Shown here: piece after piece, positions 6,026 through 64,000 of the stretch | Position numbering within the stretch: position 1 is the first letter of the stretch | Layout: the number at the start of each line of letters is the position of its first letter | NCBI RefSeq assembly: GCF_000381085.1 | Contig: NZ_KB905901.1 | Span: 124,001-188,000, forward strand | Length of the DNA stretch: 64,000 bases | Source of the DNA: Thiomicrorhabdus arctica DSM 13458 | GTDB taxonomy: Bacteria; Pseudomonadota; Gammaproteobacteria; Thiomicrospirales; Thiomicrospiraceae | Direction of reading: 5' to 3' | Position numbers and translations under genes: made by a program | The notes under the pieces: model-generated | What the model was told of the DNA's origin: nothing | Database searches by the model: none | What the model saw: the letters and a program-made list of their open reading frames with translations, nothing else

Positions 6026-8227
6026 ATGTTGAAATGTTTTGCCACCTCCGCGGGTGGTTTGAGTGAATTATTACGAGAAGAACTTATGTCTTTGGGGGCT
6101 GAAAATGTCAAGGCACAGCCAAGAGGAGTCACATTCGAAGCGGATTTAGAAACCGCTTACAGGGCTTGCTTATGGTCACGTTTAGCCAATCGAATTTTTC
6201 TGACCGTTTTGGAAGTTGAGCTCGAAAACCAAGAAGAACTGACCACAGAAATCGCTCAGATTGAGTGGAGTGATCATATGGACTCCTATGGCACTTTCTC
6301 GGTCTCATTTTCTGGAAAAGGCATGGGCATCGAACATACCAACTTTGGTGCACTTAAAATCAAAGACGGCATCGTCGACCACTTTATGGACAAGAACGAT
6401 GAGCGTCCATCGGTTAATACAGAGAATCCAAACCTGCGAGTCCACGGTCATTTAAACCGTAATCAACTGACCCTTAGCATTGATTTAATCGGTTATAGCC
6501 TACATCAACGTGGTTATCGTGAAGGCCAACAGGTTAAAGCCCCTTTGAAAGAGAATGTGGCGGCCGCACTGTTAATGCGTGCGGGCTGGCCAGCGATCGC
6601 TAAAGAAGGCGGTACGCTCTACGACCCTATGTGTGGTTCAGGTACCTTTTTAGTCGAGGCGGCCTTGATGGCTTCTGATGGCGCGCCAGGTTTACATAAA
6701 CATGACCGTATGATTCTCAATGCCTGGAAAGGGCACGATGCGGATTTATGGAAAGAGTTGGTGGCTGAAGCCAAAAACCGTCAACTACTTGGTTTGAATA
6801 ACTTACCGAAAATTGTTGGTTCTGATGCATCGCATCGTTCTTTAGACATTGCTGAAGAAGCTATTTTGAATGCGGGTTTTGCAGACTATATCGAAGTTAA
6901 GCAGATGACAGCGGAACAAGGTCGTCGTTGGGGCGACTGGCAACCAGGCCTGGTCATTACTAATCCGCCTTATGGTGAACGTTTAGGGGAAAAGGAAGAG
7001 GTTAAAGTCCTATATACGGCTCTAGGTAGATTTCTTAAAAATGAATTTGAAGGTTGGCAAGCGGCCGTCTTAACCTGTAATCCTGAGTTGGGCATGTATT
7101 TAGGGCTTAAAGCCAAGCGGAGCCATAATTTCTTTAACGGACCGATGGAGTGTAAGTTATTTCGGTTTGACGTCACGGAAGAATTTCATCGTGAACCCGC
7201 GATTAAAGGCGGTGCGGATTTAGCGGAAGGTGTACAAAGCGCTTACCCTGATTTAGCGGAATCGGAAGGTGCGATTATGTTCGCCAACCGTTTAAAGAAA
7301 AATTTAAAGCCATTACGCAAATGGGCTAAAAAACACGAAATTAATGCCTACCGCGTTTATGATGCGGATATGCCCGAATATTCTCTGTCGATTGATTTTT
7401 ATCATACCGAAGAGGGCGGTGATTGGTTGGTGGTTAATGAATATGCCGCGCCTAAAACGATTGATAAATCGAAAGCGAAGCGACGTCTGTATGAAGCCTT
7501 GTCAGTTCTACCAAGCGTGTTTGAGCTACCAGTGGAACGCATTAACTTTAAAATCCGCGAAAAACAGAGCGGCAGTGCTCAATATGAGAAGCTTGAAGAG
7601 AATAAAGAGTTTTATACAATCATTGAGAATGGCACTAAGTTGCGTGTCAACTTCACGGATTATTTAGACACGGGTATTTTTCTAGATCATCGTGATGTGC
7701 GTGCGTTTGTGGCGTTGAAGTCACACCGTAAAAGTTTATTGAACCTCTTCTGTTACACCGCAACGGTGACGGCACAAGCTGCCAATCAAGGCGCTAAAAG
7801 CAGCTTAAGTCTGGATATGTCTAAAACTTATTTAGCTTGGGCGAGACAGAATTTAATCCTCAATGATTGCGATGAGTCACAACACCTCTTAAAACAGGTG
7901 GATGTAATTGATTGGTTGGATATGGAGAGCCAAGCGACCAGCCAAGGGTTTGATGTCATTTTCTTAGACCCTCCGTCTTTCTCAACCTCGAAAAGAATGG
8001 AAGGCACGTTGGATATACAACGTGATCATGTGGATCTTATTCAAAAAACCATGAAATTATTAAATCCAGGCGGTCAGTTAATTTTCTCAAATAACTTCCG
8101 CAAGTTTAAGTTGGACGAAGCCAGTCTGGAAGGTGTCGCGATAGAAAATATCACTAAGCAAACTATGCCTAGAGATTTTGAACGCAATACTAAAATCCAC
8201 CAGGCCTGGGTATTCACGAAAGCTTAA
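6026..8227 (+). CDS. rlmL: Bifunctional 23S rRNA methyltransferase RlmKL (m2G2445 and m7G2069)
   Basis: A fusion of two SAM-dependent RNA methyltransferases that modify helix 74 of 23S rRNA during ribosome assembly. The N-terminal part has a THUMP RNA-binding domain (about 45-155) and the RlmL catalytic domain, with the N2-guanine motif NPPY at about 312-315 (ITNPPYGERLGE). The C-terminal RlmK domain begins near residue 460 and carries the FLDPPSFS motif at about 648. The length, 733 residues, is slightly above the 702 of E. coli. The start at 6026 has only a weak ribosome binding site. It stands alone, with a hairpin just past the stop, and carries two copies of the 12-bp palindrome in its reading frame. 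Confidence 0.95.
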   Translation: MLKCFATSAGGLSELLREELMSLGAENVKAQPRGVTFEADLETAYRACLWSRLANRIFLTVLEVELENQEELTTEIAQIEWSDHMDSYGTFSVSFSGKGMGIEHTNFGALKIKDGIVDHFMDKNDERPSVNTENPNLRVHGHLNRNQLTLSIDLIGYSLHQRGYREGQQVKAPLKENVAAALLMRAGWPAIAKEGGTLYDPMCGSGTFLVEAALMASDGAPGLHKHDRMILNAWKGHDADLWKELVAEAKNRQLLGLNNLPKIVGSDASHRSLDIAEEAILNAGFADYIEVKQMTAEQGRRWGDWQPGLVITNPPYGERLGEKEEVKVLYTALGRFLKNEFEGWQAAVLTCNPELGMYLGLKAKRSHNFFNGPMECKLFRFDVTEEFHREPAIKGGADLAEGVQSAYPDLAESEGAIMFANRLKKNLKPLRKWAKKHEINAYRVYDADMPEYSLSIDFYHTEEGGDWLVVNEYAAPKTIDKSKAKRRLYEALSVLPSVFELPVERINFKIREKQSGSAQYEKLEENKEFYTIIENGTKLRVNFTDYLDTGIFLDHRDVRAFVALKSHRKSLLNLFCYTATVTAQAANQGAKSSLSLDMSKTYLAWARQNLILNDCDESQHLLKQVDVIDWLDMESQATSQGFDVIFLDPPSFSTSKRMEGTLDIQRDHVDLIQKTMKLLNPGGQLIFSNNFRKFKLDEASLEGVAIENITKQTMPRDFERNTKIHQAWVFTKA
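6943..6954. repeat. 12-bp palindrome ACCAGGCCTGGT, exact, inside rlmL
   Basis: Exact copy within the reading frame, encoding Pro-Gly-Leu of the sequence QPGLVITNPPY. Confidence 0.9.
8199..8210. repeat. 12-bp palindrome, one mismatch, at 3' end of rlmL
   Basis: ACCAGGCCTGGG: it differs from the exact unit only at the last base, and lies in the last codons of rlmL. Confidence 0.7.
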
Positions 8228-8230
8228 AAC

Positions 8231-8257
8231 GATGAGGCTACATTCAGTAGCCTCATC
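8231..8257 (+). terminator. Hairpin after rlmL, possible terminator
   Basis: A perfect 11-bp stem (GATGAGGCTAC / GTAGCCTCATC) with a 5-base loop begins 3 bases after the rlmL stop. No T-run follows, so it could be a Rho-dependent end or an RNA-stabilising hairpin rather than an intrinsic terminator. Confidence 0.45.
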
Positions 8258-9968: not shown

Positions 9969-9980
9969 GCCTGGCCTGGT
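9969..9980. repeat. 12-bp palindrome, two mismatches, after the ElyC-like gene
   Basis: GCCTGGCCTGGT, lying 12 bases past the stop of the minus-strand gene at 9993. A degenerate member of the palindrome family. Confidence 0.5.
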
Positions 9981-14190: not shown

Positions 14191-15477
14191 TTACTGCTCT
14201 CTTGAAACGGCTCTATGACCAATGTCATTACGGTAGTATGCCTCTTCCCATGTCACCATTTTCAGGCCTTCATATGCACGCTTTTGCGCAGCGGTCACGT
14301 TTTCACCTAAAGCTGTCACGCAGACAACACGTCCACCTGTGGTGATCACTTCTCCCTTTTCATTTAAACTTGTGCCAGCATGGAAAACTTTTAGGTCTGG
14401 AGCATCGGCCTTGTCTAGACCTGAAATGATATCACCCTTTCGGTATTCGTCAGGATAGCCGCCAGCGGCCATCACCACTCCTAGCGCCGCTCGACTGTCC
14501 CACTGAGCCGCGACGGTATCCAACTTACCGGCAATTGCCGCTAAGCACAGTGTTGCTAGATCAGATTGTAAACGCATCATAATGGGTTGCGTTTCAGGGT
14601 CGCCAAAACGGCAGTTGAATTCAAGTACCTTAGGGATGCCATTATGGTCAATCATGACGCCTGCGTATAGAAAACCAGTATAAGGTAGGCCATCCTTTGC
14701 CATGCCTTTAATGGTCGGTTCGATGATCTCTTTCATAATACGATTATGAATTTCACGTGTGACCACAGGGGCAGGCGTATAAGCACCCATGCCACCGGTA
14801 TTGGGGCCTGTATCACCGTTATTACGTGCTTTGTGGTCTTGTGAGGTGGCCATGGGTAGGATGTTTTTACCATCTGCCATAACAATGAAACTGGCTTCTT
14901 CACCGACTAAAAATTCTTCAATAACAACACGAGAACCGGCATCGCCAAACTTATTGCCAGCTAACATGTCTGTCACAGCATCTTTCGCTTCTTGCATCGT
15001 ATCCGCCAGAATAACACCTTTTCCAGCCGCTAATCCATCGGCTTTAATGACAATAGGCACGCCCACTTTATCTAAATAAGCATGTGCTGGTGCGATTTCG
15101 GTAAAGACGTCATAAGCCGCAGTTGGGATATTGTGCCTGGCTAAAAAATCTTTAGAGAACGCTTTAGAGCCTTCAAGCTGTGCGGCATCTTTATCAGGAC
15201 CAAAACACTTTAAGCCAGCCGCTCTAAAGTCATTAACCACACCCAAGACTAAAGGAACTTCCGGACCAACAATCGTTAACTCGATAGTATTCTCGGTTGC
15301 AAAAGCGACCAGGCCTGGTAGGTCATCCGCCGCGATATTCACATTGATTAAATTTGCTTCAAGTGCTGTTCCAGCATTGCCCGGTGCTACAAAGACTTGT
15401 GAAACGGTGTCTGCTTGAACGGTTTTCCAAGCCAAGGCATGTTCACGGCCACCGCCACCAATAATTAATACTTTCAT
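14191..15477 (-). CDS. purD: Phosphoribosylamine-glycine ligase PurD (GARS)
   Basis: ATP-grasp enzyme joining phosphoribosylamine and glycine to GAR, the second step of purine synthesis. It starts MKVLIIGGGGREHALAWK (nucleotide-like N-domain), has the KADGLAAGKGVI ATP-grasp loop at about 143-155, the GPNTGGMGAYTP segment at about 223-234 and the FNCRFGDPETQ metal/ATP motif at about 284-294. At 428 residues it matches E. coli (429). It follows purH on the same strand, but an ERIC-like hairpin separates them, so co-expression may be modulated. Confidence 0.97.
   Translation of the reverse strand: MKVLIIGGGGREHALAWKTVQADTVSQVFVAPGNAGTALEANLINVNIAADDLPGLVAFATENTIELTIVGPEVPLVLGVVNDFRAAGLKCFGPDKDAAQLEGSKAFSKDFLARHNIPTAAYDVFTEIAPAHAYLDKVGVPIVIKADGLAAGKGVILADTMQEAKDAVTDMLAGNKFGDAGSRVVIEEFLVGEEASFIVMADGKNILPMATSQDHKARNNGDTGPNTGGMGAYTPAPVVTREIHNRIMKEIIEPTIKGMAKDGLPYTGFLYAGVMIDHNGIPKVLEFNCRFGDPETQPIMMRLQSDLATLCLAAIAGKLDTVAAQWDSRAALGVVMAAGGYPDEYRKGDIISGLDKADAPDLKVFHAGTSLNEKGEVITTGGRVVCVTALGENVTAAQKRAYEGLKMVTWEEAYYRNDIGHRAVSREQ
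15308..15319. repeat. 12-bp palindrome ACCAGGCCTGGT, exact, inside purD
   Basis: Exact copy in the purD reading frame, encoding the Pro-Gly-Leu of LPGLVAFA. Confidence 0.9.
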
Positions 15478-18684: not shown

Positions 18685-18714
18685 TGTAAACTTACCAGGC
18701 CTGGTAAGTTTACA
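18685..18714. repeat. 30-bp perfect palindrome containing the exact 12-bp unit
   Basis: The core ACCAGGCCTGGT (18694-18705) is extended by nine complementary bases on each side (TGTAAACTT / AAGTTTACA), giving a perfect 30-bp palindrome between prmA and dusB. No T-run follows on the minus strand, so a simple terminator is not indicated. Confidence 0.9.
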
Positions 18715-24873: not shown

Positions 24874-24885
24874 GGCAGGCCTGGT
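24874..24885. repeat. 12-bp palindrome, two mismatches, between dsbD and fxsA
   Basis: GGCAGGCCTGGT; mismatched at the first two positions. It lies in the divergent promoter region of dsbD and fxsA. Confidence 0.5.
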
Positions 24886-25546: not shown

Positions 25547-25558
25547 ATCAGGCCTGGT
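25547..25558. repeat. 12-bp palindrome, one mismatch, after fxsA
   Basis: ATCAGGCCTGGT within TTGATCAGGCCTGGTCAA, an 18-base near-palindrome, about 70 bases past the fxsA stop. Confidence 0.7.
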
Positions 25559-28563: not shown

Positions 28564-28575
28564 ACCTGGCCTGGT
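28564..28575. repeat. 12-bp palindrome, one mismatch, after the DUF302 gene
   Basis: ACCTGGCCTGGT, 18 bases past the DUF302 stop on the minus strand and ahead of its terminator. Confidence 0.65.
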
Positions 28576-39851: not shown

Positions 39852-39854
39852 TTG

Positions 39855-40364
39855 ATGCAGGAGAGTAGACTTAAATTAAAGTCTCAACATGGGGCTGTGA
39901 TGATTGAAACAGCCTATGTACTCCCCTTAGTATTAGGCGTAATGTTATTTATAGTTGAGCTAGTGGCTTATGCATTAAATAGCTTTGCCGTAAATGATGT
40001 GCTAACGGATATGCATACCAGCATATTGAGTGAAGTTTCAGCCGTGAGCAGTTTAGATGCCGGGGGCGTGTTGGGATTTACACCGCTTTATGCATCTTGC
40101 GTTGCGAATCAAGTCGTTTTGCCCGAGGGTAATAATGCTGCGATTGCTCAGATAGTAAAGAGCAGTTTAGCGACTAAAAATATTACTTTTTTAAACAGTA
40201 AGCCCGCCACTGCAACAATTACAAAGAATGTGGTTTCAGGATTTAATGTGTATATCATTAATTTTACAGGTGTCGCGAACTCTTTGGTATTACCAGAGTT
40301 TTTTGAAGTGCTGTTGCCCATTAATGTCAATACCATTGTCAGCATAAAAGACAGTTGTGTATGA
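39855..40364 (+). CDS. TadE-like minor pseudopilin
   Basis: A 169-residue protein with a prepilin-like N-terminus: short basic leader, Gly13, then AVMIETAYVLPLVLGVMLFIVELVAYAL, with Glu at position 5 of the mature form and the Tyr-Val-Leu-Pro seen in TadE/TadF. Pseudopilins of this type are processed like Flp and help pilus assembly. The ATG at 39855 starts 3 bases after the flp stop; there is no good ribosome binding site, so translation may be coupled. A TTG just before it is the other option. The exact TadE or TadF identity is uncertain. Confidence 0.78.
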   Translation: MQESRLKLKSQHGAVMIETAYVLPLVLGVMLFIVELVAYALNSFAVNDVLTDMHTSILSEVSAVSSLDAGGVLGFTPLYASCVANQVVLPEGNNAAIAQIVKSSLATKNITFLNSKPATATITKNVVSGFNVYIINFTGVANSLVLPEFFEVLLPINVNTIVSIKDSCV

Positions 40365-40449
40365 CCGTATGTCGACCCCTTTTATTTAGTATTTCTTTCA
40401 AATAATAGCTTTTTTCGAAGTTATTTCCTCCAAATAAAATGAGTATTTT

Positions 40450-41334
40450 ATGAAAATTCAACGCAGTGATGTCGTGCTGTATGGCGTCGCTTTTCTATCA
40501 GCCATACTCGCAATTGGATTAGTTTATGGCTATGTCGAGAATCGAGTCGCGGAGGCAGAGAGTAAAACTGAAGTTAAAACCGTAACTGTCATTGAAAAGC
40601 CAGATTTACGTTCGGTCATGGTGGCAAGCCGTGATATTTACCGCGGTGAAAAAATCGAAGTGGATGACGTTAAAGTTTTAATGGTGCCCGTTGAAGGAGT
40701 ACTAGCAACAGGGGTTCTAACACAACCTAAAGCCGCAATTGGACATGTTGCCAAACAGGATATGTATGCTGGCGAGTGGTTGATGGATCAAAAGATTGGA
40801 TTTCAGGACGTCAAAGTAAGCGGTGTTGAGGCATTACTTGAAAAAGGCATGCGCGCCATGCGTATTTCCGTTTCAGCTGAAACCGGTTTGTTAGGCATGC
40901 TAAATCCGAACGATCATGTTGATGTGATCAGTGTGTTTGAAAGCACAGACGGTAAACGCATGATTAGTCGCACGATTCTACAAAATATTGAGGTACTCTC
41001 TATTGGCCAGACTAACCGCATGGGGCAAATGAGTCAGGAAGTCGTGCAAGACTCTCAAAAAAATCAACAAGGTGAAGCTTTTGTTAAAGCCTCTATGGTG
41101 GCTCTTAATGTCAATATGCGACAAGCCGAAAAGTTAGCCTTGGCGCTGAATATAGGTGCTTTCCACCTTATTCTACGTGGGCCAGCAGATGTGGAGTTGA
41201 TTGAAACCGATGGTGTGAATGTCAAAGTGATGGAGCGCAGTAAACAGCGCCCACCTATCTATAAAGCCAAAAAAGATCGCGATGTCATACAGATAATGCA
41301 AGGTGGCCGCGTTCAAGAAGTGAGAACAAGATGA
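40450..41334 (+). CDS. cpaB: Flp pilus assembly protein CpaB/RcpC
   Basis: A 294-residue periplasmic protein anchored by one N-terminal helix (about 9-28). It has a SAF domain at about 55-125 (VMVASRDIYRGEKIEVDDVKVLMVP) and the RcpC/CpaB domain with LEKGMRAMRISVSAETGLLGMLNPNDHVDVI. CpaB-type proteins stabilise or gate the outer membrane secretin of Tad systems. The ATG has an AT-rich leader rather than a strong ribosome binding site. It overlaps cpaC by 4 bases (ATGA). Confidence 0.9.
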   Translation: MKIQRSDVVLYGVAFLSAILAIGLVYGYVENRVAEAESKTEVKTVTVIEKPDLRSVMVASRDIYRGEKIEVDDVKVLMVPVEGVLATGVLTQPKAAIGHVAKQDMYAGEWLMDQKIGFQDVKVSGVEALLEKGMRAMRISVSAETGLLGMLNPNDHVDVISVFESTDGKRMISRTILQNIEVLSIGQTNRMGQMSQEVVQDSQKNQQGEAFVKASMVALNVNMRQAEKLALALNIGAFHLILRGPADVELIETDGVNVKVMERSKQRPPIYKAKKDRDVIQIMQGGRVQEVRTR

Positions 41335-42935
41335 ATTTTTTTCAAAATACAATAGTAGATAAGGTACCGCAGGCGACTCTTATGAATAAGAAAGCATTGA
41401 TATTAGGTTTGACATTGATCGGAGTGTCTTTAGGTGCTCAGGCAGAACTCGCTAAAACCTATAACTTGACAGAAACAGATAGTCAGATTATTAAGTTCGA
41501 TAAAGGCTTAAAAAGAGCTTTAATTGCCAATCCCGAATTGGCAACTGTAAAAGTCTTAAGTAAAAATGAGCTGTTAGTAACAGGTAAAGAAGCCGGCAGA
41601 ACGCAGCTCATTATCACCTATCGAGACTCACCAAATATTGACCATAAGGTGGTCTTGAATGTAGCTCCAGATCAGTCGCGCCGTGAAGAGATCGAACAAA
41701 CATTAGCGCAATTGCTGAAAGGCTTAAACCCGCAAGGTACGGTTAAGTTTGAACTCAAAAATATTTGGATCAATGCGGAAGGCGCTATTCGACGTGAAGT
41801 CGATCAAATTGGTAATCAGATAGATGGAGACGCTAATCTCAAACAATCAGCCCGTCAAGATAAACAAATGCTGCAGAGTGAGAGTTCAGTAGGAAGCTTA
41901 AGTTCGCAACCATTGGCGGGGAATTATCTGGTGTTGTTATCAGGTGAAGTACAGAATAAAGCGCAAAAAAAGCGTATTAACTCGGTCATCTCTGCATTAG
42001 GTTTAAGTGTCATAAATATGATTAATGTGACCGGTCCTCAACAGATCAAATTATCGGTTCGTGTTGCAGAGGTTGTCAAAGGTAATCCATTTAGAAGTGG
42101 TTTTGCAGCACGAGATAAAACGGATCAATATGGCATTTTTCCGCCAGGAAATTTAGGTTCGACTGCAAACTTTTTATTGAATGTTGCGAGTGTCGCGCCA
42201 GGAACAGGTGCTGCTATTAATTTTCCACATGCAGATGGCTTTCAATTAGGGATAAATCCTCTAAACAGTAATTTGTTTGGGGTACTCTCTATTTTAGAAG
42301 GCAATCATCTGGCACGTATTTTAGCGAAGCCTGAGTTGATTGTTCAATCAGGTGAAACCGCTGAATTTCTTGTGGGAGGAGAAGTGCCCATTCCAGTTGC
42401 TCAAAATGCCCAGACGATTACCGTTTCTTATAAAGAGTTTGGTGTACGTTTACGTTTTAGTCCTATTATTACCGAGTCAGGCGAAATTCAAATGACGGTT
42501 GCACCAGAAATCAGTAGTATCGACGAAAGTTCCGGCTCTCAGACGGGTTCTATTGTTGTACCCGGGTTCCGTTCACGTAAAGCGACCACCACGGTCACTC
42601 TCGCTGCAGGGCAAAGTTTTGTCATCGGCGGACTGATTCAAGATAACTTCCGTAGTTCCGTCTCTAAAATCCCCCTCCTAGGGGATATTCCGATCATTGG
42701 TACTTTATTCCGTTCAACCAGTTATGAAAAGGATCAGTCAGAGTTAGCGATTTTAGTTACCCCTACCTTTGTTGATCCCATTGAACCAACATCAAAAATC
42801 ACGCTTCCAGGAGAAAATATAGATCGACCAAGCGCTGCTGAGGGATTCTTTAGCGGGAAGTTGGCTAAGTTGTTACCTCCTGGGGAGAGCGCGCTTCCTG
42901 AACTGTCTGTTCAGATCGGATTGGAGAAGCCTTAA
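41331..42935 (+). CDS. cpaC: Tad secretin CpaC/RcpA
   Basis: Forms the outer membrane channel for Flp pili. The start is either the ATG at 41331, coupled by overlap with cpaB, or the ATG at 41382, which gives a more ordinary signal peptide (MNKKALILGLTLIGVSLGAQA). The N-terminal pilus-formation domain (KTYNLTETDSQIIKFDKGLKRALI...VLSKNELLVTGK) is followed by a BON-like region and the secretin core with LNSNLFGVLSILEGNHLARILAKPELIVQSGETAEFLVGGEVPIP and VIGGLIQDN...KIPLLGDIPIIGTLFRS. At 534 residues it is somewhat longer than usual, with a Gln/Ser-rich insert near 170. Confidence 0.93.
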   Translation: MNFFQNTIVDKVPQATLMNKKALILGLTLIGVSLGAQAELAKTYNLTETDSQIIKFDKGLKRALIANPELATVKVLSKNELLVTGKEAGRTQLIITYRDSPNIDHKVVLNVAPDQSRREEIEQTLAQLLKGLNPQGTVKFELKNIWINAEGAIRREVDQIGNQIDGDANLKQSARQDKQMLQSESSVGSLSSQPLAGNYLVLLSGEVQNKAQKKRINSVISALGLSVINMINVTGPQQIKLSVRVAEVVKGNPFRSGFAARDKTDQYGIFPPGNLGSTANFLLNVASVAPGTGAAINFPHADGFQLGINPLNSNLFGVLSILEGNHLARILAKPELIVQSGETAEFLVGGEVPIPVAQNAQTITVSYKEFGVRLRFSPIITESGEIQMTVAPEISSIDESSGSQTGSIVVPGFRSRKATTTVTLAAGQSFVIGGLIQDNFRSSVSKIPLLGDIPIIGTLFRSTSYEKDQSELAILVTPTFVDPIEPTSKITLPGENIDRPSAAEGFFSGKLAKLLPPGESALPELSVQIGLEKP

Positions 42936-44200
42936 TGCGTGCAGGATTATCGACAAGCTCTATTGCCTTGAAACAAGCGCTTTATTTTGGGTCGGATGCG
43001 GACTTACAAGAAGCCGTACGTGTGTCCATTTTATCTAAATATGTGATGGAAGCTCAGGAGGAGATTCCACATGTATGGTCGGATAATGTGAGTTTGGTTT
43101 TATTAGAACATAATGGTGAAGCGCAAACCACGCTGCAAAGAATTAATGAAGTGCTGACCTTGGCAAAAGGGGTTTTGATTTACGTTTTGCTAAAAGATAA
43201 AGATGCCGATTTTATTATTGAAGCAAGTCATCAAGGTGTTCAAGGGTTTATTGAGTGTCCTAATGAAGTGTTTCATATTCTCTCTATCTTGCATATGCAA
43301 GACCGCAGACAAAAAGGCAAAAATGGGAATGTCTCTTCTTTATTCAGCTTAAAAGGGGGGGTAGGTTGCACTGCTTTAGCCACTAATATCGCTTCCCATC
43401 TGAATGATTTGACTGAAGGGCGTACAGTATTGGTGGATTTAAATATGCCTTTAGGTGACACGGCACTTTATTTAAATATGGAATCCAAACATCTATACAC
43501 CCTGACGGATTTTGTCTATAACCTTAATCGTTTCGATGAAAATTTAATTTATAAATCATTAAGTCGCCATGAGTCGGGTTTATATGTGTTGTCTTTACCA
43601 GGAGAGGTTGGGGAGTTAGACAATCTTAATGGTGAACTCATTAAAACTATTATTCAGTCTTTACGACGTTATTATGATCATGTTGTGATTGACTGCGCGA
43701 GTGATTTGTCAGACTTAACCTTAAGCTGTTTAGATGAGTCGGACAGTATTGTATTAGTGGCGGAACCTTCCTTATCCTCTTTACGCGCGGTGAATACCGC
43801 TATTCAGATTAGTCAGAAACTTGGTTATATCAAAGAATCCCTTAAACTCATTGTAAATCGAAGCACCAGTGGATGTGATGAAATGCTTGAAGAGGTGATT
43901 GATTCATTAAATATTGAGACTGTTGCACGAGTTGATAATGACTATTTAGGATTCAATGAATCCTTAAGAGAAGGGCAATTACTCAAAGAATACAAGCCGG
44001 AATCGAATGTAAACAGTCAGTTGTTGAATATTGCCAATATGCTGCATAACGGCAGCGTGCAGTTAGAGGTGGTAAAGTTGAAAGCACGAAAATCAAATAG
44101 GTTTGATTTTTTCAATACGTTGTTTAAGTCTAAAAAGTCTGAAGTGAAGCCTTCACCCTCTTCTGTCTCTGACGTGGACCAGAAGGCTGTGGTGTCTTAA
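42935..44200 (+). CDS. TadZ/CpaE-type pilus localisation ATPase
   Basis: A 421-residue MinD/ParA superfamily protein that positions the Tad machine at the pole. The N-terminal atypical receiver-like domain spans about 12-125. The P-loop region is SLKGGVGCTALATNIA (about 137-152), the deviant Walker A of the family with Cys replacing the usual Lys/Thr-side residue, followed by VLVDLNMPLGDTALYLNM and the HVVIDCASDLSDLTLSC switch. A Ser/Lys-rich tail ends the protein. The start codon overlaps the cpaC stop (TAATG). Confidence 0.88.
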   Translation: MRAGLSTSSIALKQALYFGSDADLQEAVRVSILSKYVMEAQEEIPHVWSDNVSLVLLEHNGEAQTTLQRINEVLTLAKGVLIYVLLKDKDADFIIEASHQGVQGFIECPNEVFHILSILHMQDRRQKGKNGNVSSLFSLKGGVGCTALATNIASHLNDLTEGRTVLVDLNMPLGDTALYLNMESKHLYTLTDFVYNLNRFDENLIYKSLSRHESGLYVLSLPGEVGELDNLNGELIKTIIQSLRRYYDHVVIDCASDLSDLTLSCLDESDSIVLVAEPSLSSLRAVNTAIQISQKLGYIKESLKLIVNRSTSGCDEMLEEVIDSLNIETVARVDNDYLGFNESLREGQLLKEYKPESNVNSQLLNIANMLHNGSVQLEVVKLKARKSNRFDFFNTLFKSKKSEVKPSPSSVSDVDQKAVVS

Positions 44201-45613
44201 ATGAGTATTCGCGATCGATTAAGACAAGTAGAACAAAAGCACCAAGCCACGACTGCTTTAGATATATCTGAATCTGTTAAGAAAGTGATTGCTCCGAGTG
44301 CACGGACGGCGTTAAACGAATCGAGCATGGCACAAGATATTACTTTTCAGGAAATTAAAGGTCGCTGTCAAAAGAAGGCCGCCGAAGATGAGGCCTTTTA
44401 TGAAGCAGATAGCAAAGAAACACGTCAAGAATTAAGACCCCGTTTAGAGATATTGGTACGTGAAATTGCGAGCGATATGGGGTATCCCTTATCAGAAATT
44501 GAAGTACGTCAATTGGGGGTAGAATTACTGGATGAAATATATGGTTTAGGCCCGATTGAACCTCTCCTCGCAGACCCAACTGTCTCAGATATACTCATCA
44601 ATGGCTATGACAATATTTATGTGGAGCGTGCTGGTCAACTTGAATTGACGGATGTGCGTTTTATCAGTGAAGAACATTTGCGTAATAAAGTCGATAGAAT
44701 GCTTTATTCCACTGGGCGTCGAGTGGATGAATCTTCACCTTTAGTGGATTCACGTTTACCCGATGGATCACGAATCAATATTATTATTCCTCCCTTATCC
44801 GTTGATGGCATTAGTGTCTCTATTCGACGTTTCCCAGAACAACATTTACGCGCAAAAGATTTGATTGCTTATGGGACCATGACAGAGCAGATGTTTCAAT
44901 TTTTAGATTATGCTGTAAAAGCGGGCTTGAATATACTGGTCTGCGGCGGTACAGGGTCAGGGAAAACCACTACTCTCAATATGCTTTCGGGGTTGATTCC
45001 AGAAAATGAACGGACGGTCACTATTGAAGACAGTGCCGAACTCAGAATGCAACAAGCCCATGTAGTACGTTTAGAAACTCGTCCACCCAATGCAGAAGGC
45101 ATTGGTGAAGTTACACAACGTGAGCTTTTGAAAAATGCCTTGCGTATGCGTCCTGACAGAATCGTATTAGGTGAGGTGCGTGGTGGTGAAGTTTTGGATA
45201 TGTTGCAGGCTATGAATACGGGGCACGACGGTTCACTTGCCACCTTACATGCCAACAGTCCACGCGATAGCATTTCACGATTGGAATTAATGATTAATTT
45301 AAGTGGTGTGGACATACCCGCTGCCTCTATTCGTAAACAGATTGCGAGTGCAATTGATCTGATTATTTATGTTAACCGTGGTAAAGATGGTCACCGACGA
45401 GTTGAATCCATTACCGAGGTGGTCGGTGTTGAAGAAGAAAACATCGTGTTGCAAGAAATTTATGTTTTTGAACATAAATTAGATAAAAGATCTGGCAGCA
45501 TAAAAGGCGTTTTTAGAGCAACAGGGTTACGTCCAGGGTGCGGTAAAAAATGTGAAGCTGTTGGTTACAGCTTGCCATCTGAACTGTTTAACTTTAGTCA
45601 GGAAGTGAACTAA
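44201..45613 (+). CDS. tadA: Tad pilus secretion ATPase TadA/CpaF
   Basis: Hexameric GspE/VirB11-type ATPase that powers Flp pilus assembly. Its 470 residues include a helical N-terminal domain, the VDRMLYSTGRRVDESSPLVDSRLPDGSRINIIIPPLS segment, Walker A GGTGSGKTTTLN at about 248-259, the Asp box TVTIEDSAELRM, Walker B LGEVRGGE and the His box GHDGSLATLHANSPRD. It starts on the base after the preceding stop (TAAATG), so coupled. A conserved C-x4-C-like end (RPGCGKKCE) is unusual and not common in relatives I recall. Confidence 0.94.
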   Translation: MSIRDRLRQVEQKHQATTALDISESVKKVIAPSARTALNESSMAQDITFQEIKGRCQKKAAEDEAFYEADSKETRQELRPRLEILVREIASDMGYPLSEIEVRQLGVELLDEIYGLGPIEPLLADPTVSDILINGYDNIYVERAGQLELTDVRFISEEHLRNKVDRMLYSTGRRVDESSPLVDSRLPDGSRINIIIPPLSVDGISVSIRRFPEQHLRAKDLIAYGTMTEQMFQFLDYAVKAGLNILVCGGTGSGKTTTLNMLSGLIPENERTVTIEDSAELRMQQAHVVRLETRPPNAEGIGEVTQRELLKNALRMRPDRIVLGEVRGGEVLDMLQAMNTGHDGSLATLHANSPRDSISRLELMINLSGVDIPAASIRKQIASAIDLIIYVNRGKDGHRRVESITEVVGVEEENIVLQEIYVFEHKLDKRSGSIKGVFRATGLRPGCGKKCEAVGYSLPSELFNFSQEVN

Positions 45614-46554
45614 TGGATTTAGGGTTTTTTATTGTTGCATTCGCCATTATGTTGCCTTTTGCCATCCTCAGTTTTGTGGTGTCTTTAAAAAAACAACAGC
45701 AAAAACAGCTAGCGGTGCGCCGTTTAATGTCGCGTATTGGTCTCAATAATCTTGAACAAAAAACAATTCAAGATCATTTGATGCAGCAAAAAGAGAAAAG
45801 TTGGTTTATCTGGTTTATCAGTAAATTCAAAAAAGCAGGATTAAATAATAAACATGCCATTATCAAGGTGGTTACTGCTCAAGCAATCTTACTGTTTATG
45901 AGCGCTTTTATTCTTTCGACAAAATTTAATGTCTTAAATGATAAGTTGATTTTACTCAGCATTATCTTGCCCCTCTTACCCAGTGCTTTTGTCTATTTTA
46001 AAATTCGTCAGCGCCAGACTGCTTTACGTCAACAATTTCCAGAAATGTTAGATTCCATTGTCCGTTCGTTACAATCTGGTTACGGGATCGATGGTGCGCT
46101 GGCTGCTGTCGGTGAGGATATGCAGGGGGCTTTGGCGCAAGAAATGAAAGAGGTGAATAAGCAGTTGACGATCGGGATAAGTATGCGCGATGTCTTGCGA
46201 GAATTTCAGCGTCGTGTTGATTTACCAGAAGCTCAATTTTTTGTCATCACCCTGATTATCCAACGTGAAACAGGTGGGCAACTTTCGCTGATTTTAGGTG
46301 AATTAGCTAAATTAATGCGTAGAAGAGTCAGCTTTCAAGCAAAAATCAAAACACTCACTGCTGAGTCTCGCTTTACGGCTTGGTTTATTGGTGGGGCTCC
46401 CATTGTTTATGTTGTTTATAAATATTTCTTTGATAAAGAATCTATGCAATTTTTTCTATATGACCCAACGGGATTCAAGTTATTTGTCGTTTCGCTGATA
46501 TTGATATTTACCGGCACACTGATTTTAAGACAGATGCTGAAAATGAGGTTTTAA
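45613..46554 (+). CDS. tadB: Tad inner membrane platform protein TadB
   Basis: A 313-residue protein of the GspF/T2SF fold with three to four membrane helices: one at about 1-25, a pair at about 90-135 and a pair at about 255-310. The cytoplasmic T2SF domain contains FPEMLDSIVRSLQSGYGIDGALAAVGEDMQGALAQEMKEVNKQLTIG and FVITLIIQRETGGQLSLILGELAKLMRRR. Works with TadC as the pilus platform on the inner membrane. The start overlaps the tadA stop (TAATG). Confidence 0.93.
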   Translation: MDLGFFIVAFAIMLPFAILSFVVSLKKQQQKQLAVRRLMSRIGLNNLEQKTIQDHLMQQKEKSWFIWFISKFKKAGLNNKHAIIKVVTAQAILLFMSAFILSTKFNVLNDKLILLSIILPLLPSAFVYFKIRQRQTALRQQFPEMLDSIVRSLQSGYGIDGALAAVGEDMQGALAQEMKEVNKQLTIGISMRDVLREFQRRVDLPEAQFFVITLIIQRETGGQLSLILGELAKLMRRRVSFQAKIKTLTAESRFTAWFIGGAPIVYVVYKYFFDKESMQFFLYDPTGFKLFVVSLILIFTGTLILRQMLKMRF

Positions 46555-46558
46555 AGAA

Positions 46559-47455
46559 ATGTCTTTTCCTTTTCTCTTATTAATGGTGGGCGGCTTAATA
46601 TTTATGAGTGCATGGTTGTTGACGAATCGTGTACTGAAGGTACAGATAAAACAGCTTAACATAGAACGCATCAAGTCTAGAGTGGGGCTTTCCAGCCAGT
46701 ATGTAAAACAATCCTCGAACTATAATCAGTGTTGGTGGTGCACGATTGGCCGCGCGATAGGGCCTGAAAGTCACAAAGAGATTAGTTTATTGCGGCGCCA
46801 ACTGATCAGTGCAGGTTATCGTCAAGATAGTCATATTGGATCTTACTTTTTTATTAAGTATGCCTTGATTGTGAGCTCGATTCTCATCACCTCCTTAGCT
46901 TGGAGCTGGCAAGGAATCTCTCCTTTGTGGATTATTTCAGTACCCATTGTGTTTTTATTGTTGCCTGAACGCATACTAATTCACCTTGGTCAGCGTCGAT
47001 TAGGTCTGATTAATCAGAACTTACCCGATTTTTTAGATATGTGTAATATCTGTATGAATGCCGGTTTGAGTTATTTGGTGGCACTCAAGCGTGTATCTCA
47101 AGAACTAAAAGAGGTACATCCAGAAATTTGCTATGAGTTTGAATATTTGTTGGATCAAATTCAATTAGGCGTGCCGCGTTCAGAGGCGTTACATCAGTTC
47201 GCAGAGCGTAACCCAACGAAGGATATTCAAACCTTAATACAAGTGTTGATTCAAAATGAAAAGTTGGGAAGTTCCATCAGTGCTGCGTTAAACGATTTTT
47301 CACGCCGCATGTACCAAACCAGGCAGGAGTTGTTAGAAGAGAAGGCCGCTAAAACCTCAGCAAAAATGGCGGTAGTGATTATGCCGTTTCTGATGGCGCC
47401 TTATCTTATTTTATTGTTAAGTGAAAAGTTTGTGCTGTTAGCACGGGGTATGTAA
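46559..47455 (+). CDS. tadC: Tad inner membrane platform protein TadC
   Basis: A 298-residue partner of TadB, also T2SF-type, with membrane helices at about 3-20, 95-135 and 265-290. The conserved segment LPDFLDMCNICMNAGLSYLVALKRVSQELKEVHPEICYEFEYLLDQIQLGVPRSEAL and the RNPTKDIQTLIQVLIQNEKLGSSISAAL block mark the domain. The order tadA-tadB-tadC is the conserved Tad layout, with a 4-base gap after tadB. A Cys-rich patch near residue 60 (NQCWWCTIG) is unusual. Confidence 0.92.
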   Translation: MSFPFLLLMVGGLIFMSAWLLTNRVLKVQIKQLNIERIKSRVGLSSQYVKQSSNYNQCWWCTIGRAIGPESHKEISLLRRQLISAGYRQDSHIGSYFFIKYALIVSSILITSLAWSWQGISPLWIISVPIVFLLLPERILIHLGQRRLGLINQNLPDFLDMCNICMNAGLSYLVALKRVSQELKEVHPEICYEFEYLLDQIQLGVPRSEALHQFAERNPTKDIQTLIQVLIQNEKLGSSISAALNDFSRRMYQTRQELLEEKAAKTSAKMAVVIMPFLMAPYLILLLSEKFVLLARGM

Positions 47456-48111
47456 TGTTTACACGAATTAAGAAAAGAAAGCAGAACAAAGTCAATAATT
47501 TTTTACGTGTGGCCATTCTACCAGGCCTGGTTGTTTTATTAGTGGGGTGTTCTTCTACCAAGACGAAGGTCGAAAATAACGTTGATTATTCAAAATATTC
47601 GCAACAAGATGCCCCCTTAGCAACGCAACTAAATGATCAAGACGAATATGAGTTTGCCCTGGATTTGGCCAGTTTGGCCATTGAACGTAAACAGTATTCT
47701 AGAGCGGAGGGGATTTTACATAAAGCCCGTAAGGTCAATCCTCAAGATGTCCGGATTTATCGCATGTTGGCTAAAGTTTATGAAGCTCAAGACAATAACA
47801 ACTATGCCTTAGTGGCGATGCAACAAGCCAATAAGCAAGCAACCAAAACCGTAGAAGATGAATCGGAGTTGGGACGTTTGGCATTGATGCAGGATAAATT
47901 TGTTTTGGCAGAGAATATCTACAAGAGCTGGTTAACGTCTACTGACATGAGTCGTCAAGTCAGTGCTTTGAATAATTTAGGCTTCAGTGCACTTTTACAA
48001 AAGAAATATGTAAGTGCAAAAATCTATTTTGAACAAGCGTTACAAAAAGATCCTTTAAACACCAAAGCACGTAATAATTTACTGCTTTTAAAAAACTTGT
48101 CGGAGTCTTAA
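47455..48111 (+). CDS. tadD: Tad pilus lipoprotein with TPR repeats (TadD-type)
   Basis: A 218-residue outer membrane lipoprotein with acylated Cys32 in the lipobox VLLVGC. At least three TPR motifs follow: AIERKQYSRAEGILHKARKVNPQD, IYRMLAKVYEAQDNNNYALVAMQQA, and NNLGFSALLQKKYVSAKIYFEQALQKDPLN. TPR lipoproteins of this kind (TadD, like PilF/PilW) help insert the secretin. The start overlaps the tadC stop. The exact 12-bp palindrome lies in the signal-peptide coding part. Confidence 0.88.
   Translation: MFTRIKKRKQNKVNNFLRVAILPGLVVLLVGCSSTKTKVENNVDYSKYSQQDAPLATQLNDQDEYEFALDLASLAIERKQYSRAEGILHKARKVNPQDVRIYRMLAKVYEAQDNNNYALVAMQQANKQATKTVEDESELGRLALMQDKFVLAENIYKSWLTSTDMSRQVSALNNLGFSALLQKKYVSAKIYFEQALQKDPLNTKARNNLLLLKNLSES
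47520..47531. repeat. 12-bp palindrome ACCAGGCCTGGT, exact, inside tadD
   Basis: Exact copy encoding Pro-Gly-Leu within the hydrophobic stretch of the lipoprotein signal. It is the only copy between about 28.6 and 49.5 kb. Confidence 0.9.
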
Positions 48112-49515
48112 ATGCGAACCAGTCAACGCCGCAAAATGCAACGTGGCGCAATTTCTTTGCTAGGCGCGGCCTCTATTGTCTTGTCTTTATTCTCATTTGA
48201 GCAGGTTTTGCAGTACACGAATGCCAAAATTCTGGATCGCGAATTAGACAATTACGCAAGAGATGTTGCAGCGGTGGCGTTGCGTTCTGAGTTGGCAATC
48301 ACCATGGATGGGATTAAAAACGGGACAATGAGTGCGAATCAAACACGTCTTGTAACAGATGATTTATTGATGCAAGTCAAAATGTATACCTATACCGATA
48401 GCCTTCAACCCAATTCTAAAAACCTCACTAAAAGGATCACTTTCGGGAATTTAGCAAGCTCGGCAATTTGTGACTCCATAGATCCAACGATTAGACAAGG
48501 GTGTTTTATACCTTTAACACGTGATCAGTTTAATCCAAGATCCGCGAAAACCCCCATTGATTTTAGTGCGGTGGCCGTACAATTAAGGAGTACCGATAGT
48601 TTCTACTCCTACACACCTCAAGGAAGAGCGATCTATGGCATGCCACAAGCCAATACGCTTACCGATTCGGGTTGTTATTGTAAAAATCGGTATGCGACAT
48701 GTCTGGATATGAATTTAACGGTAGCGGATTTGTCTTCTATGCCAAGTTCGGAGGCTGATGCCGTTATTATTAAGGGTTCGGATGCTAGAAAGAACTACTG
48801 TAATTACGGGTTTTCAGAGCCCAAAATCTCTAATTCAGTAGCGACTAAATATCCTTATATAAAATTTAATGATGCTTGGATTGGTAGACCGCCCGAAACG
48901 ATCAACTTTTTTATGTTTTACTCTACAAGTTATGATGGAGAAGCATTTAATCTCATTTTAAACCAGAAACCTGTGAGTGTCTTAAATGGTGACGATCCAT
49001 TAAAAAACACCTCCGGATTTGCAGCTTCGTTCAGTAGCTCTTACTGCTTCATTGGGTGTGGTTCGGCGGACCTTGCAGCTAAGGATCAAAGTTTGAGTGC
49101 CTTTGAAAAGTCAGACATATCACTCTCCACATCTCAGTCCGATTATCGATGTGAAAAACCTGGATTTTTTCTTTTTCCTACCACATATTCAAGTTGCGAT
49201 AGTGCCTCGAATAGTAATGATGTGGTTTTAGAAGATAGCACCTATATCGGTTATCAAGGCACCTGTATCCCTTCGACAAATACAACAAATGTGGCTATGT
49301 CTCGTTGTTTATCTTACAACGATGGTTCTACATCACATTATGAAAGTTGCCTTGAAATCGAACGAAGAAGTTCAATTTCAATGAATTTCTTCCAACGGAT
49401 GACCGCTTTTTTTCTAGGTCCTATTTTAAACTGGCAACGCTCTTATGAAGCTCTGAACTGCGAAATGCAACAGGTTCAATATAAAGGCTGGTTATTTTGG
49501 GGTGGTTGGATATAA
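48112..49515 (+). CDS. TadG-like pilus assembly protein
   Basis: A 467-residue protein with a short basic leader and an N-terminal helix (GAISLLGAASIVLSLFSFEQVLQYTNAKILDREL) as in TadG/TadE-like Flp assembly proteins. A large extracytoplasmic region rich in Ser, Thr and Cys follows; about 14 cysteines (for example SGCYCKN, SYCFIGCGS, YSSCDSAS) suggest several disulfides. The last gene of the Tad operon is often such a protein; the sequence beyond the first 60 residues is not one I recognise. It starts directly after the tadD stop. Confidence 0.75.
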   Translation: MRTSQRRKMQRGAISLLGAASIVLSLFSFEQVLQYTNAKILDRELDNYARDVAAVALRSELAITMDGIKNGTMSANQTRLVTDDLLMQVKMYTYTDSLQPNSKNLTKRITFGNLASSAICDSIDPTIRQGCFIPLTRDQFNPRSAKTPIDFSAVAVQLRSTDSFYSYTPQGRAIYGMPQANTLTDSGCYCKNRYATCLDMNLTVADLSSMPSSEADAVIIKGSDARKNYCNYGFSEPKISNSVATKYPYIKFNDAWIGRPPETINFFMFYSTSYDGEAFNLILNQKPVSVLNGDDPLKNTSGFAASFSSSYCFIGCGSADLAAKDQSLSAFEKSDISLSTSQSDYRCEKPGFFLFPTTYSSCDSASNSNDVVLEDSTYIGYQGTCIPSTNTTNVAMSRCLSYNDGSTSHYESCLEIERRSSISMNFFQRMTAFFLGPILNWQRSYEALNCEMQQVQYKGWLFWGGWI

Positions 49516-49528: not shown

Positions 49529-49540
49529 ACCAGGCCTGGT
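49529..49540. repeat. 12-bp palindrome ACCAGGCCTGGT, exact, after the Tad operon
   Basis: Exact copy 13 bases past the tadG-like stop. No ordinary terminator is visible there, so this small palindrome is the only structure at the operon's end. Confidence 0.9.
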
Positions 49541-53649: not shown

Positions 53650-53661
53650 ACCAGGCCTGGT
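53650..53661. repeat. 12-bp palindrome ACCAGGCCTGGT, exact, after recR
   Basis: Exact copy 25 bases past the recR stop and ahead of the terminator; extended by one pair to GACCAGGCCTGGTC. Confidence 0.9.
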
Positions 53662-57263: not shown

Positions 57264-57470
57264 ATGAGCGAAAACTCAACGAATTCAAAAATGCATTATG
57301 AAGTGACTTATGCCGATTTACCACTGCATTGTCCTACACCTGATATGAGTCAGTGGAACTCACATCCAAAGGTGTTTTTACCGATTGAAAAAACCGGTGA
57401 AGCTAAGTGCCCATACTGTGGTGCGGAGTATACCTTAAAAGATTTTGATCCTAGTCAATCTGGACACTGA
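57264..57470 (+). CDS. zf-CHCC zinc-finger protein
   Basis: A 68-residue protein with the CHCC zinc site as Cys23, His34, Cys49 and Cys52 (LHCPTPDMSQWNSHPKVFLPIE...AKCPYCGAEYTL). The family resembles the NDUFS6 subunit of complex I; the role in bacteria is unclear. The gene is often beside ilvE or LPS genes in gammaproteobacteria. AAGGAAAG precedes the ATG, 28 bases after ilvE, so one transcript. An exact 12-bp palindrome and a strong terminator follow. Confidence 0.9.
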   Translation: MSENSTNSKMHYEVTYADLPLHCPTPDMSQWNSHPKVFLPIEKTGEAKCPYCGAEYTLKDFDPSQSGH

Positions 57471-57480: not shown

Positions 57481-57492
57481 ACCAGGCCTGGT
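57481..57492. repeat. 12-bp palindrome ACCAGGCCTGGT, exact, after the zf-CHCC gene
   Basis: Exact copy 10 bases past the stop and ahead of the terminator. Confidence 0.9.
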
Positions 57493-62073: not shown

Positions 62074-62082
62074 AGAATTAGT

Positions 62083-63114
62083 TTGCGTATATTACTCATT
62101 AAAATGTCCTCTATGGGGGATGTGTTTCATACTTTCCCTGCGTTATCGGATGCTTTAAAAGCGATGCCTGATTTACAAGTAGACTGGGTCGTCGAAAAGT
62201 CGTTTGCAGAAATTCCACAATGGCATCCTGCTGTGGATAAAGTCTATCCCATTGAGCTGCGCAAATGGCGAAAAAGTCTTTTTGCAAAACAGACGCGACA
62301 GGACATTAAAGTGTTTTTTGAGACAATCAACCAAACCAACTATGATTTAATTCTTGATGCGCAAGGGCTTTACAAAAGTCTTTGGGTAGGGAGAAGAGTG
62401 AGAGCTCCGATGAGCGGTTTTGATTTTGGGAGTGCTCGCGAACCCTTATCGAGTCTGTTTTACAAGAATAAGTATCGGGTTGCTAAAGACCAACATGCCA
62501 TCTTACGACTACGCCAACTCTTCGCTCAAGCATTAGATTATCCGCTCACTGAAAATGCGCTAATCATTTATGGATTAAATACCCAGGCCTGGTCAAAGCC
62601 AGAAATCCTTCTCGAAAATATTGGGCATGATGATTACTGGGTATTCTTGCATGGCACAACTTGGGAAACCAAGTATTGGCCAGAAGCCAACTGGATTGAG
62701 TTGTTACAAAAAGCTAATGCTTCAGGCGTTAAAGTTATTTTGCCTTGGGGGAATCAAGAAGAGCATGAACGTGCTTTACGTATTGCCAGCGCCACAGAAA
62801 ACAGCCAGACCTGGGTGCCAGATGAAATGTTAAGTTTAAATACGGTTGCTAAAGTACTCAAAAATGCCAAAGCGGTGGTTTCTGTGGATACTGGCTTATC
62901 ACATGTCGCGGCGGCTTTAGAAGTGCCAATGGTCGTATTGTATCGAGTAACGGACCCTAAGTTGGTTGGTGCAGATGGCTTGATGGTTAAACGTTTGCAG
63001 TCACCTTGCGCACCGCTTTACTTGAAGAAGTTTAAAAGTGTCCAACAACAAAACATGTCTTTGGAAGGGTTGGATGTTGATACTGTTTTGAATGCCATGA
63101 CAATAGGATTTTAA
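62083..63114 (+). CDS. waaC: Lipopolysaccharide heptosyltransferase I WaaC
   Basis: GT9 family enzyme that adds the first heptose to Kdo of the LPS core. It begins MRILLIKMSSMGDVFHTFPALSDALKAMP, the glycine-rich GT9 start, and contains the acceptor-side VDWVVEKSFAEIP and the donor-binding HGTTWETKYWPE, KAVVSVDTGLSHVAAALEVPMVVLYR. At 343 residues it is slightly longer than E. coli (319). The start is TTG with a GAGA site. It lies 9 bases after hldD. Confidence 0.92.
   Translation: MRILLIKMSSMGDVFHTFPALSDALKAMPDLQVDWVVEKSFAEIPQWHPAVDKVYPIELRKWRKSLFAKQTRQDIKVFFETINQTNYDLILDAQGLYKSLWVGRRVRAPMSGFDFGSAREPLSSLFYKNKYRVAKDQHAILRLRQLFAQALDYPLTENALIIYGLNTQAWSKPEILLENIGHDDYWVFLHGTTWETKYWPEANWIELLQKANASGVKVILPWGNQEEHERALRIASATENSQTWVPDEMLSLNTVAKVLKNAKAVVSVDTGLSHVAAALEVPMVVLYRVTDPKLVGADGLMVKRLQSPCAPLYLKKFKSVQQQNMSLEGLDVDTVLNAMTIGF
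62582..62593. repeat. 12-bp palindrome, one mismatch, inside waaC
   Basis: CCCAGGCCTGGT, encoding Gln-Ala-Trp within the reading frame. Confidence 0.7.
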
Positions 63115-63117
63115 TCA

Positions 63118-64000
63118 ATGTCTGATGCAAAGAAGACTCGCGTGCTTTACTTACCTTCGACCCCTTTAAATCTACTGGTTTCAGTCGCCCATGCAACCGC
63201 CTATAATAATGAACAAGATGCTCAATTAGTCCTTATTGATCAGAAGTCATTAAACAAAAATCCATACTTTAGTGCCTTAAAAGAGTGGGGCGAGGGCCCT
63301 TTTGAGCAGGTTGATATCTTGCCAGGAAAGGCTAAGGGACTTCATAAACTCGCTGAACGTAAAGTTAATTTTTCAAAATTGGTGAATATAGCCCAATCTT
63401 TTAAGCCCAACGTGATTGCGGTTGGCAGTGATCGCCGAGTTGAATTCCAGTTTTTAATGCAGTATTGCCGTCATAAAATAGGTCAAGTGTCAGGTTGGTA
63501 TATGGATGATGGTTTGTACTCTTATGCCGGACGTCCTTATAAACGGATTAAAGATAATGTTAATGGAGTATTAAAGAAACTTGTTTATGGTTTATGGTGG
63601 CAAGAGCCACCAACGATAGGCGCTTCAAGTTGGGTTGACCAGGCCTGGTTGTTTAGCCCAATACATGCTATTTCCGCATTACAACAAAAAAAGATTGCCC
63701 TGATTAAACCTGAATGGTTTGATCAGCGACAAGTTGTAGAGTTTAGTGAACGTGTATTGCTTCAATTTGATTTAGATCAAACAGTTAAAGATCGTATTCA
63801 GTTGGCTGATTTATTTCTATTAATTCCACACCCTAATAATATAGAGAAAATGATAGGGTATGAAAATCGCATAGAACTGTTTTTAACAGCACTCAATGAG
63901 TTGGGGTTAAACGTTGTGATTAAATATCATCCACGTTCGCTAGGCAACGATGCCTTAGACTTGGCCAAACGCTATAATACATTTGTTCTACCCAAGAATT
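63118..64000 (+). CDS. Partial putative glycosyltransferase (GT52 / polysialyltransferase-like)
   Basis: The first 294 codons of a protein that runs past the window edge. It starts MSDAKKTRVLYLPSTPLNLLVSVAHATAY, 3 bases after waaC. The visible part has STPLNLLVS near the start, a YMDDGLYSYAGRPYKR block and KYHPRSLGNDA near the end. These resemble the nucleotide-sugar-binding pattern of GT52-type LPS sialyltransferases or of bacterial polysialyltransferases, by general form only. The context in an LPS-core operon supports a glycosyltransferase. The sugar donor is not known. Confidence 0.6.
   Translation, partial: MSDAKKTRVLYLPSTPLNLLVSVAHATAYNNEQDAQLVLIDQKSLNKNPYFSALKEWGEGPFEQVDILPGKAKGLHKLAERKVNFSKLVNIAQSFKPNVIAVGSDRRVEFQFLMQYCRHKIGQVSGWYMDDGLYSYAGRPYKRIKDNVNGVLKKLVYGLWWQEPPTIGASSWVDQAWLFSPIHAISALQQKKIALIKPEWFDQRQVVEFSERVLLQFDLDQTVKDRIQLADLFLLIPHPNNIEKMIGYENRIELFLTALNELGLNVVIKYHPRSLGNDALDLAKRYNTFVLPKN
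63638..63649. repeat. 12-bp palindrome ACCAGGCCTGGT, exact, inside the partial glycosyltransferase
   Basis: Exact copy in the reading frame (VDQAWLF) with near-symmetric flanks TTGACCAGGCCTGGTTG. Confidence 0.9.

Follow-up and report, generated by a model that had tools for sequence, protein, structure and literature searches.

A symmetric DNA word with species-specific dialects, dispersed far above chance in about half of the genomes surveyed in one family of chemolithotrophs

The window analysed here is a stretch of 64,000 nucleotides from Thiomicrorhabdus arctica DSM 13458 (contig NZ_KB905901.1, positions 124,001 to 188,000; genome G000, 2.55 Mb). Among database records, those of Thiomicrorhabdus match the RecR of this window best (94% in isolate NP51). 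Scattered between and within its genes are copies of a 12-bp palindromic word, ACCAGGCCTGGT, built on the 8-bp core CAGGCCTG. A first-pass annotation of the sequence had listed 14 copies with up to two mismatches, and we recovered every one at the same position and in the same mismatch class: eight exact, four with one mismatch and two with two. The excess is far beyond chance, as dinucleotide shuffling of the window (100 shuffles) gave a mean of 1.38 matches and a maximum of 5. The whole genome contains 333 exact 12-mers and not a single occurrence of the control pattern read backwards. Moreover, 464 kb of this genome, comprising the window and 20 sampled stretches, hold 57 exact copies, while an order-3 Markov model predicts 0.03. 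The count across the genome and across species, set beforehand as the refutation test, was strongly positive; the word is neither at chance level nor confined to the window.

Four exact copies lie between genes, just as had been claimed, and no strand is assigned to any copy. The first of these four (18694..18705) is found between prmA and dus, past the stop of the former (18760, minus strand) and upstream of the latter, and the second (49529..49540) between a stop at 49515 and a tRNA-Ser at 49610. The third (53650..53661) occupies the convergent gap between recR and argF, together with a distinct terminator-like hairpin at 53712, and the fourth (57481..57492) directly follows a 68-codon open reading frame (57264-57470) located 3' of ilvE. 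The imperfect intergenic copies comprise one with two mismatches in a convergent gap (9969..9980, between gene ends at 9841 on the plus strand and 9993 on the minus strand), one with a single mismatch in the convergent gap past fxsA (25547..25558), one with a single mismatch right after the stop of a DUF302 gene (28564..28575; stop at 28594, minus strand), and one with two mismatches in a divergent gap (24874..24885, between 24701 on the minus strand and 24985 on the plus strand). By the frames called, seven of these eight exact or near copies are downstream of a stop codon, the copy at 24874 being the exception; the tendency reported earlier is real. The remaining exact copies are inside genes. 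Three of them encode the peptide PGLV, in rlmKL (6943..6954), in purD (15308..15319) and in a TPR gene of a Tad cluster that we take to be tadD-like (47520..47531), and another (63638..63649) lies inside an open frame (63118-63999) that runs off the window. Two further copies with one mismatch are located close to the 3' end of rlmKL (8199..8210) and inside a heptosyltransferase gene, presumably waaC-like, where the word encodes QAWS (62582..62593); the core codons of this last copy are identical in Thiomicrorhabdus sp. Milos-T2.

The unit itself is larger than first described. We examined its anatomy in the 464 kb of G000, in 460 kb of G024, a relative with a differently spelled core (CCGGCCGG), and in 100 kb from each of six other carriers. 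Reading outward from the core, the consensus is approximately GT-Y-R-n-TTT in G000 and T-A-A-A-n-TTT in G024, and the edge bases vary among the other carriers. GGCC stands at the centre of both spellings, and in both a T-tract lies further out on each side, its midpoint 11 bp away from the dyad (positions +6 to +8 from the core). These tracts belong to the unit, for which 12 bp is too short. The two CCWGG sites described as overlapping in fact abut within the unit, one as CCAGG and the other as CCTGG. The T-tracts are also present in coding copies, whichever of the three frames is used and on either side of the core. In six pooled CAGGCCTG genomes, T occupies positions +6 to +8 of coding copies in 497 of 1050 cases (47%, background 28%), and in G024 in 382 of 816 (47%, background 29%). 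Position by position, the frequencies are 45, 50 and 46% in both sets, and they return to background at +9 to +12. Control sites in word-less loci (L093-L125) gave 35, 33 and 28% for CAGGCCTG (23 sites) and 33, 13 and 27% for CCGGCCGG (15 sites). Since the tracts are maintained in coding copies too, these data point to a unit of about 24 bp that is recognised at the level of DNA. Such a unit may be described as a two-fold-symmetric recognition site, with an 8-bp GC core (CAGGCCTG, replaced in one species by CCGGCCGG), one or two species-specific edge bases and one T-tract per side, a helical turn from the dyad. The reader of the word, most likely a dimer as the symmetry suggests, would then recognise it in double-stranded form.

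Placement of the word with respect to genes, defined here by simple longest-open-frame calls, is far from uniform. Between genes we found 28 of the 57 exact copies sampled in G000 and 69 of the 174 sampled in G024, although intergenic sequence makes up only 11.5% and 12.7% of the respective DNA. In G000, exact copies per kb amount to 1.31 in convergent, 0.37 in tandem and 0.14 in divergent gaps. Across eight sampled carriers, the core is 2.6 to 6.4 times denser between genes than in coding sequence in seven and lower in the eighth, G035. Convergent gaps are the densest in those seven genomes and divergent gaps the poorest in six, G033, which has few copies, being excepted. Coding copies use three frames and mostly specify short peptides of mild character, among them PGLV, QAWS and PAG. 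In the waaC-like, purD and tadD-like genes (the last at 47-55% identity), the site aligns without gaps to core-less orthologues; for the rlmKL copy, no orthologue was present among the loci compared. Altogether, the word would seem to accumulate through base substitutions at places where the sequence can accommodate it, that is, between genes, above all at convergent ends, and in frames yielding mild peptides. Spacing is random, with a coefficient of variation of 0.94 over the first 68 listed positions of G019 and 0.91 over the first 100 of G000, compared with 0.99 for random placement, and no even spacing was seen in either set.

Some positions are conserved between genomes. Nine other loci, belonging to several genera (L047, L054, L058, L061, L065, L066, L067, L077 and L081), retain a site 246-297 bp beyond ilvE; in the window, the 68-codon frame mentioned above intervenes. 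No core was found in the post-ilvE gap of L057, L060, L062, L063 and L064. Similarly, a site preceding argF is common to L054, L058, L060 and L061, and the palindromes flanking it differ from locus to locus and are mostly perfect. Stretch L218 of G024 contains a single copy against an expectation of about 7.9 (P 0.003, uncorrected for the 23 stretches). This stretch resembles an integrated mobile element, with ParA-, ParB- and resolvase-like starts labelled by eye.

When the core CAGGCCTG was counted against its reversed control in 62 genomes of the order, all from one family, it was over-represented in 32, with 236-1173 copies each; the other 30 have 0-74, and the reversed controls range from 0 to 36 across all 62. 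Carriers account for 15 of 32 genomes in Thiomicrorhabdus, 7 of 11 in genus g6, 9 of 9 in g5 and 1 of 1 in g3, while g2, g4 and g28, with nine genomes in all, have 0-67 core copies per genome. In 21 genomes from other families of the class, the 8-mer occurs 0-222 times and the controls 0-91 times. G024 belongs to the 30 genomes poor in CAGGCCTG and contains instead 1025 copies of ACCGGCCGGT, a word found only 0-20 times in the other 57 genomes searched for it (58 in total, 37 of them from the family). Apart from G024, the dialects concern the edges, with GT/GT, CT/GT and CT/CT in other carriers; in G035 the commonest pair is the asymmetric CT/GT (AGCAGGCCTGGT; 15 of 39 copies). A symmetric, dialect-forming DNA word occurs far above chance in about half of this family. 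Within Thiomicrorhabdus, the highest counts among non-carriers are those of G004 (62, control 15) and G021 (74, control 20), whose TadB proteins are as near to that of the window as those of many carriers (67-68%). Their copies may perhaps be remnants left after loss of the word, a weak suggestion because other non-carriers also lie about fourfold above control (G003, 32 against 8). A search for other words of comparable strength in 20-134 kb from each of eight non-carriers (G003, G014, G020, G021, G025, G027, G074 and G076) and in five loci of 12.6-20.6 kb (L057, L059, L062, L063 and L064) returned none; the nearest was GCATTAATGC, with 6 occurrences versus 0.25 expected in 134 kb of G025.

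Several explanations can be weighed against these observations. The possibility that the word arises from composition, codon use or a mobile repeat is practically negligible, given 57 copies against 0.03 expected, a reversed control of zero and coding copies in three frames; moreover, gap-free alignment over the site to core-less orthologues was obtained for three of four coding copies, one of them at low identity. Nothing was found in its favour. We also regard it as very improbable that the copies are intrinsic terminators or hairpins of 3' untranslated regions. It is true that the intergenic copies lie past stop codons, that in each of the seven genomes tested they fold better on average than controls with shuffled flanks, that left and right intergenic flanks match more often than expected in six CAGGCCTG genomes (217 against 187.3, standard deviation 8.6, reached in 1 of 2000 shuffles), and that the four loci sharing the pre-argF site have differing, mostly perfect palindromic flanks. 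However, called coding frames hold 29 of the 57 exact copies in G000 and 105 of the 174 in G024, and flank matching is seen neither in G024 nor in coding copies. With an admittedly crude terminator caller, a separate terminator was present in 36 of 164 intergenic cases and in 77 of 384 core-less gaps (convergent and tandem, at least 60 bp), and called terminators enclosed only 13 of the 164 intergenic cores. Where genes are in tandem, the motif came before the terminator nine times (stop-motif-terminator) and after it 11 times (stop-terminator-motif). A general terminator role was rejected, as separate terminators are about as frequent with the core as without it, and on either side. A signal of the Chi type, that is, an 8-bp GC-rich word that halts degradation of the cell's own DNA by RecBCD- or AddAB-type enzymes, seems improbable as well. 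The density and 8-bp length range of Chi include those of the present core, and coding copies in benign frames would suit such a signal. Chi is non-palindromic and read on one strand, however, and the symmetric T-tracts and the enrichment in convergent gaps have no place in that model.

An origin in DNA methylation was one of three readings offered by the first-pass annotation, together with an uptake sequence and a chromosome-organising site, and our data do not support it. On this reading, the word would be a highly iterated palindrome of the HIP1 type, made and kept by a DNA methyltransferase and a repair bias. It is indeed GC-rich, palindromic and very highly over-represented genome-wide, with one main form per genome that is replaced by another in some relatives, as the consulted parts of PMC4390886 describe for the cyanobacterial palindromes. 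We nevertheless consider this origin unlikely. Among 17 carriers searched, eight (G000, G010, G015, G018, G022, G024, G026 and G033) match neither PF00145 (5-methylcytosine) nor PF01555 (N4/N6) at E of 1e-3 or below, other methyltransferase families not having been searched; the other nine match at least one of the two (G006 and G008 lay outside the PF00145 search). Because the core of G024 contains no adenine, methylation of adenines in the core cannot be the general rule. The present word also differs from HIP1 in its lower density, its T-tracts and its preference for gene ends, and the parts of PMC4390886 consulted describe neither T-tracts nor intergenic enrichment. As a separate observation, G070 (genus g2) has nine matches to the C5 cytosine methyltransferase family, some of them fragments, compared with 0-3 in the other 57 genomes searched. 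The main rival is a dimeric nucleoid-associated or chromosome-organising protein with hundreds of dispersed sites, which perhaps bends DNA through the T-tracts and is kept away from promoters. The palindromic core, the flanking T-tracts placed symmetrically at one turn from the dyad and the conservation of this spacing across a change of core are all in line with such a protein, as are the presence of copies over the whole G024 chromosome and the failure to find canonical PilM in the family. On the other hand, CAGGCCTG is scarce in 29 of the 62 genomes besides G024, also within two genera, and the core is altered in one species, which would be unusual for a housekeeping organiser; the random spacing speaks against it too. 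SlmA and Noc sites are short, dimer-bound, dispersed palindromes that number in the tens and avoid the terminus region. The present word numbers in the hundreds and shows no such gap in G024, though possibly a slight dip; the two stretches flanking the skew switch (at about 1.47 Mb) contain 7 and 5 copies (mean of 7.6 over 23 stretches). An organiser of the SlmA/Noc type is disfavoured, and was not supported, because copies are not missing near this terminus. A chromosome-binding protein in general is doubtful when taken alone, and at the same time nearly as likely as a self-DNA mark.

The reading that we tentatively prefer, while giving it somewhat less than an even chance, is that the word is bound by a DNA reader of two-fold symmetry and serves self-DNA recognition in the manner of uptake sequences. 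We rate this use as the likeliest because the placement, the dialects, the absences, the depletion in an island and the AT-tracts all recur in uptake sequences. Import and recombination favouring DNA from kin would spread the word, as in the uptake sequences of Pasteurellaceae and Neisseriaceae; reader and word would drift jointly into dialects, and the word would decay once the reader was lost. A dimeric reader, a use in uptake and a spread by import are inferred. The fuller proposal, in which a symmetric self-DNA mark with T-tracts one turn either side is spread by import or recombination in hosts lacking a PilM-type pilus and co-evolves with a putative dimeric reader, is more doubtful, with about one chance in three. 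A genome-wide excess of one short word and dialects among relatives are seen here, as with both known classes. Like the present word, the uptake signal sequences (USS) of Pasteurellaceae have a short GC-bearing core, AT-tracts at fixed distances beside it, many copies and dialects, according to passages of PMC12616744 and PMC7811141. They are, however, non-palindromic, with AT-rich regions downstream only, whereas the T-tracts described here are symmetric. The DNA uptake sequences (DUS) of Neisseriaceae also form dialects within one family, are absent from a relative and are tolerated between genes, and Simonsiella has a dyad arrangement of two overlapping dialects that the authors interpret as possible dimer recognition (PMC3630211, in the parts consulted). 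Symmetric T-tracts are not mentioned there for DUS.

A number of results weigh against a role in uptake. Copies do not form terminators (the 13 of 164 given above), unlike paired DUS and USS; USS pairs often do so according to the consulted part of PMC1852404. Core density is about 120-550 per Mb, below that of DUS (about 1900 per 2.2-2.3 Mb, or more) and of USS (spacing of about 1 kb). Exact copies outnumber those with one mismatch (57 against 31 in G000 and 174 against 53 in G024), while passages of PMC3630211 state that one-off copies of DUS outnumber exact ones in all species, K. oralis having 21% more hits in another passage. G035 lacks T-tracts and has 37 of its 39 copies in genes, with no intergenic preference, unlike its relatives. 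The reader gene was not identified among the gene families compared (ComEC, GspH, PilM, TadB and N_methyl pilins), none of which separates carriers from non-carriers. The DUS reader is the pilin ComP, and no counterpart was found here. Canonical PilM (PF11104) was not found in 37 family genomes; five had no match and the other 32 only partial weak ones (best E 8e-9 to 2e-4) whose frame sizes suggest ftsA or mreB, while 16 of 21 genomes outside the family gave E values of 1e-83 to 1e-146. Type IV pilus uptake machinery was thus not recovered on PilM, other pilus genes not having been searched one by one, and a different machine may serve instead. ComEC is present in 33 of the 37 genomes, in carriers and non-carriers alike; pilin-like (N_methyl) genes are present in 22 of 22 genomes with E up to 0.05 and no carrier/non-carrier split; and TadB, found in 11 carriers and nine non-carriers, does not correlate with the word. 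GspH/FimT (PF12019) gave weak matches in three of 37, a weak negative because this profile likewise failed to detect pseudopilins in the type II secretion operon that we read by eye in G000. Altogether, much of the anatomy fits an uptake sequence and the missing PilM does not, so that the readings offered at the outset are supported in part.

To our knowledge, only two bacterial families are firmly established as carrying dispersed uptake words. These two are named in the consulted part of PMC7811141. If the present word serves uptake, these unrelated chemolithotrophs would add a third family, whose own word, dialects, within-genus absences and several complete genomes would lend themselves to comparisons aimed at identifying the reader and at testing whether such words need type IV pili; the comparison also bears on why HIP1-like palindromes exist at all. 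The annotation knew of no described element with this sequence, and our literature search likewise gave no published description. The 12-mer was not found in the published literature, the papers listed for the 8-mer and 'palindrom' looked unrelated, judged by title, and no match joined 'DNA uptake sequence' with 'Thiomicro'. The main texts of PMC1852404 and PMC5217627, in the parts consulted, mention neither Thiomicrospira nor GGCC.

Several other features of these genomes were noted. The window contains a Tad-type pilus cluster at 39852-49515, and TadB is found in many, though not all, Thiomicrorhabdus genomes, with and without the word. Elsewhere in G000, stretch L318 (3109-8916) encodes several large pilin-like genes beside a response regulator and a kinase-like gene, outside the type II operon, as read by eye. 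In samples L032, L037, L041 and L043 of G014, a 5-base unit, GACAA, is repeated in tandem about 22 times. Finally, 100 kb of G020 (samples L264-L268) hold about 97 copies of a repeat that includes GCAGCTAAGA, and from the appearance of this repeat we take it to be an array of clustered regularly interspaced short palindromic repeats (CRISPR).

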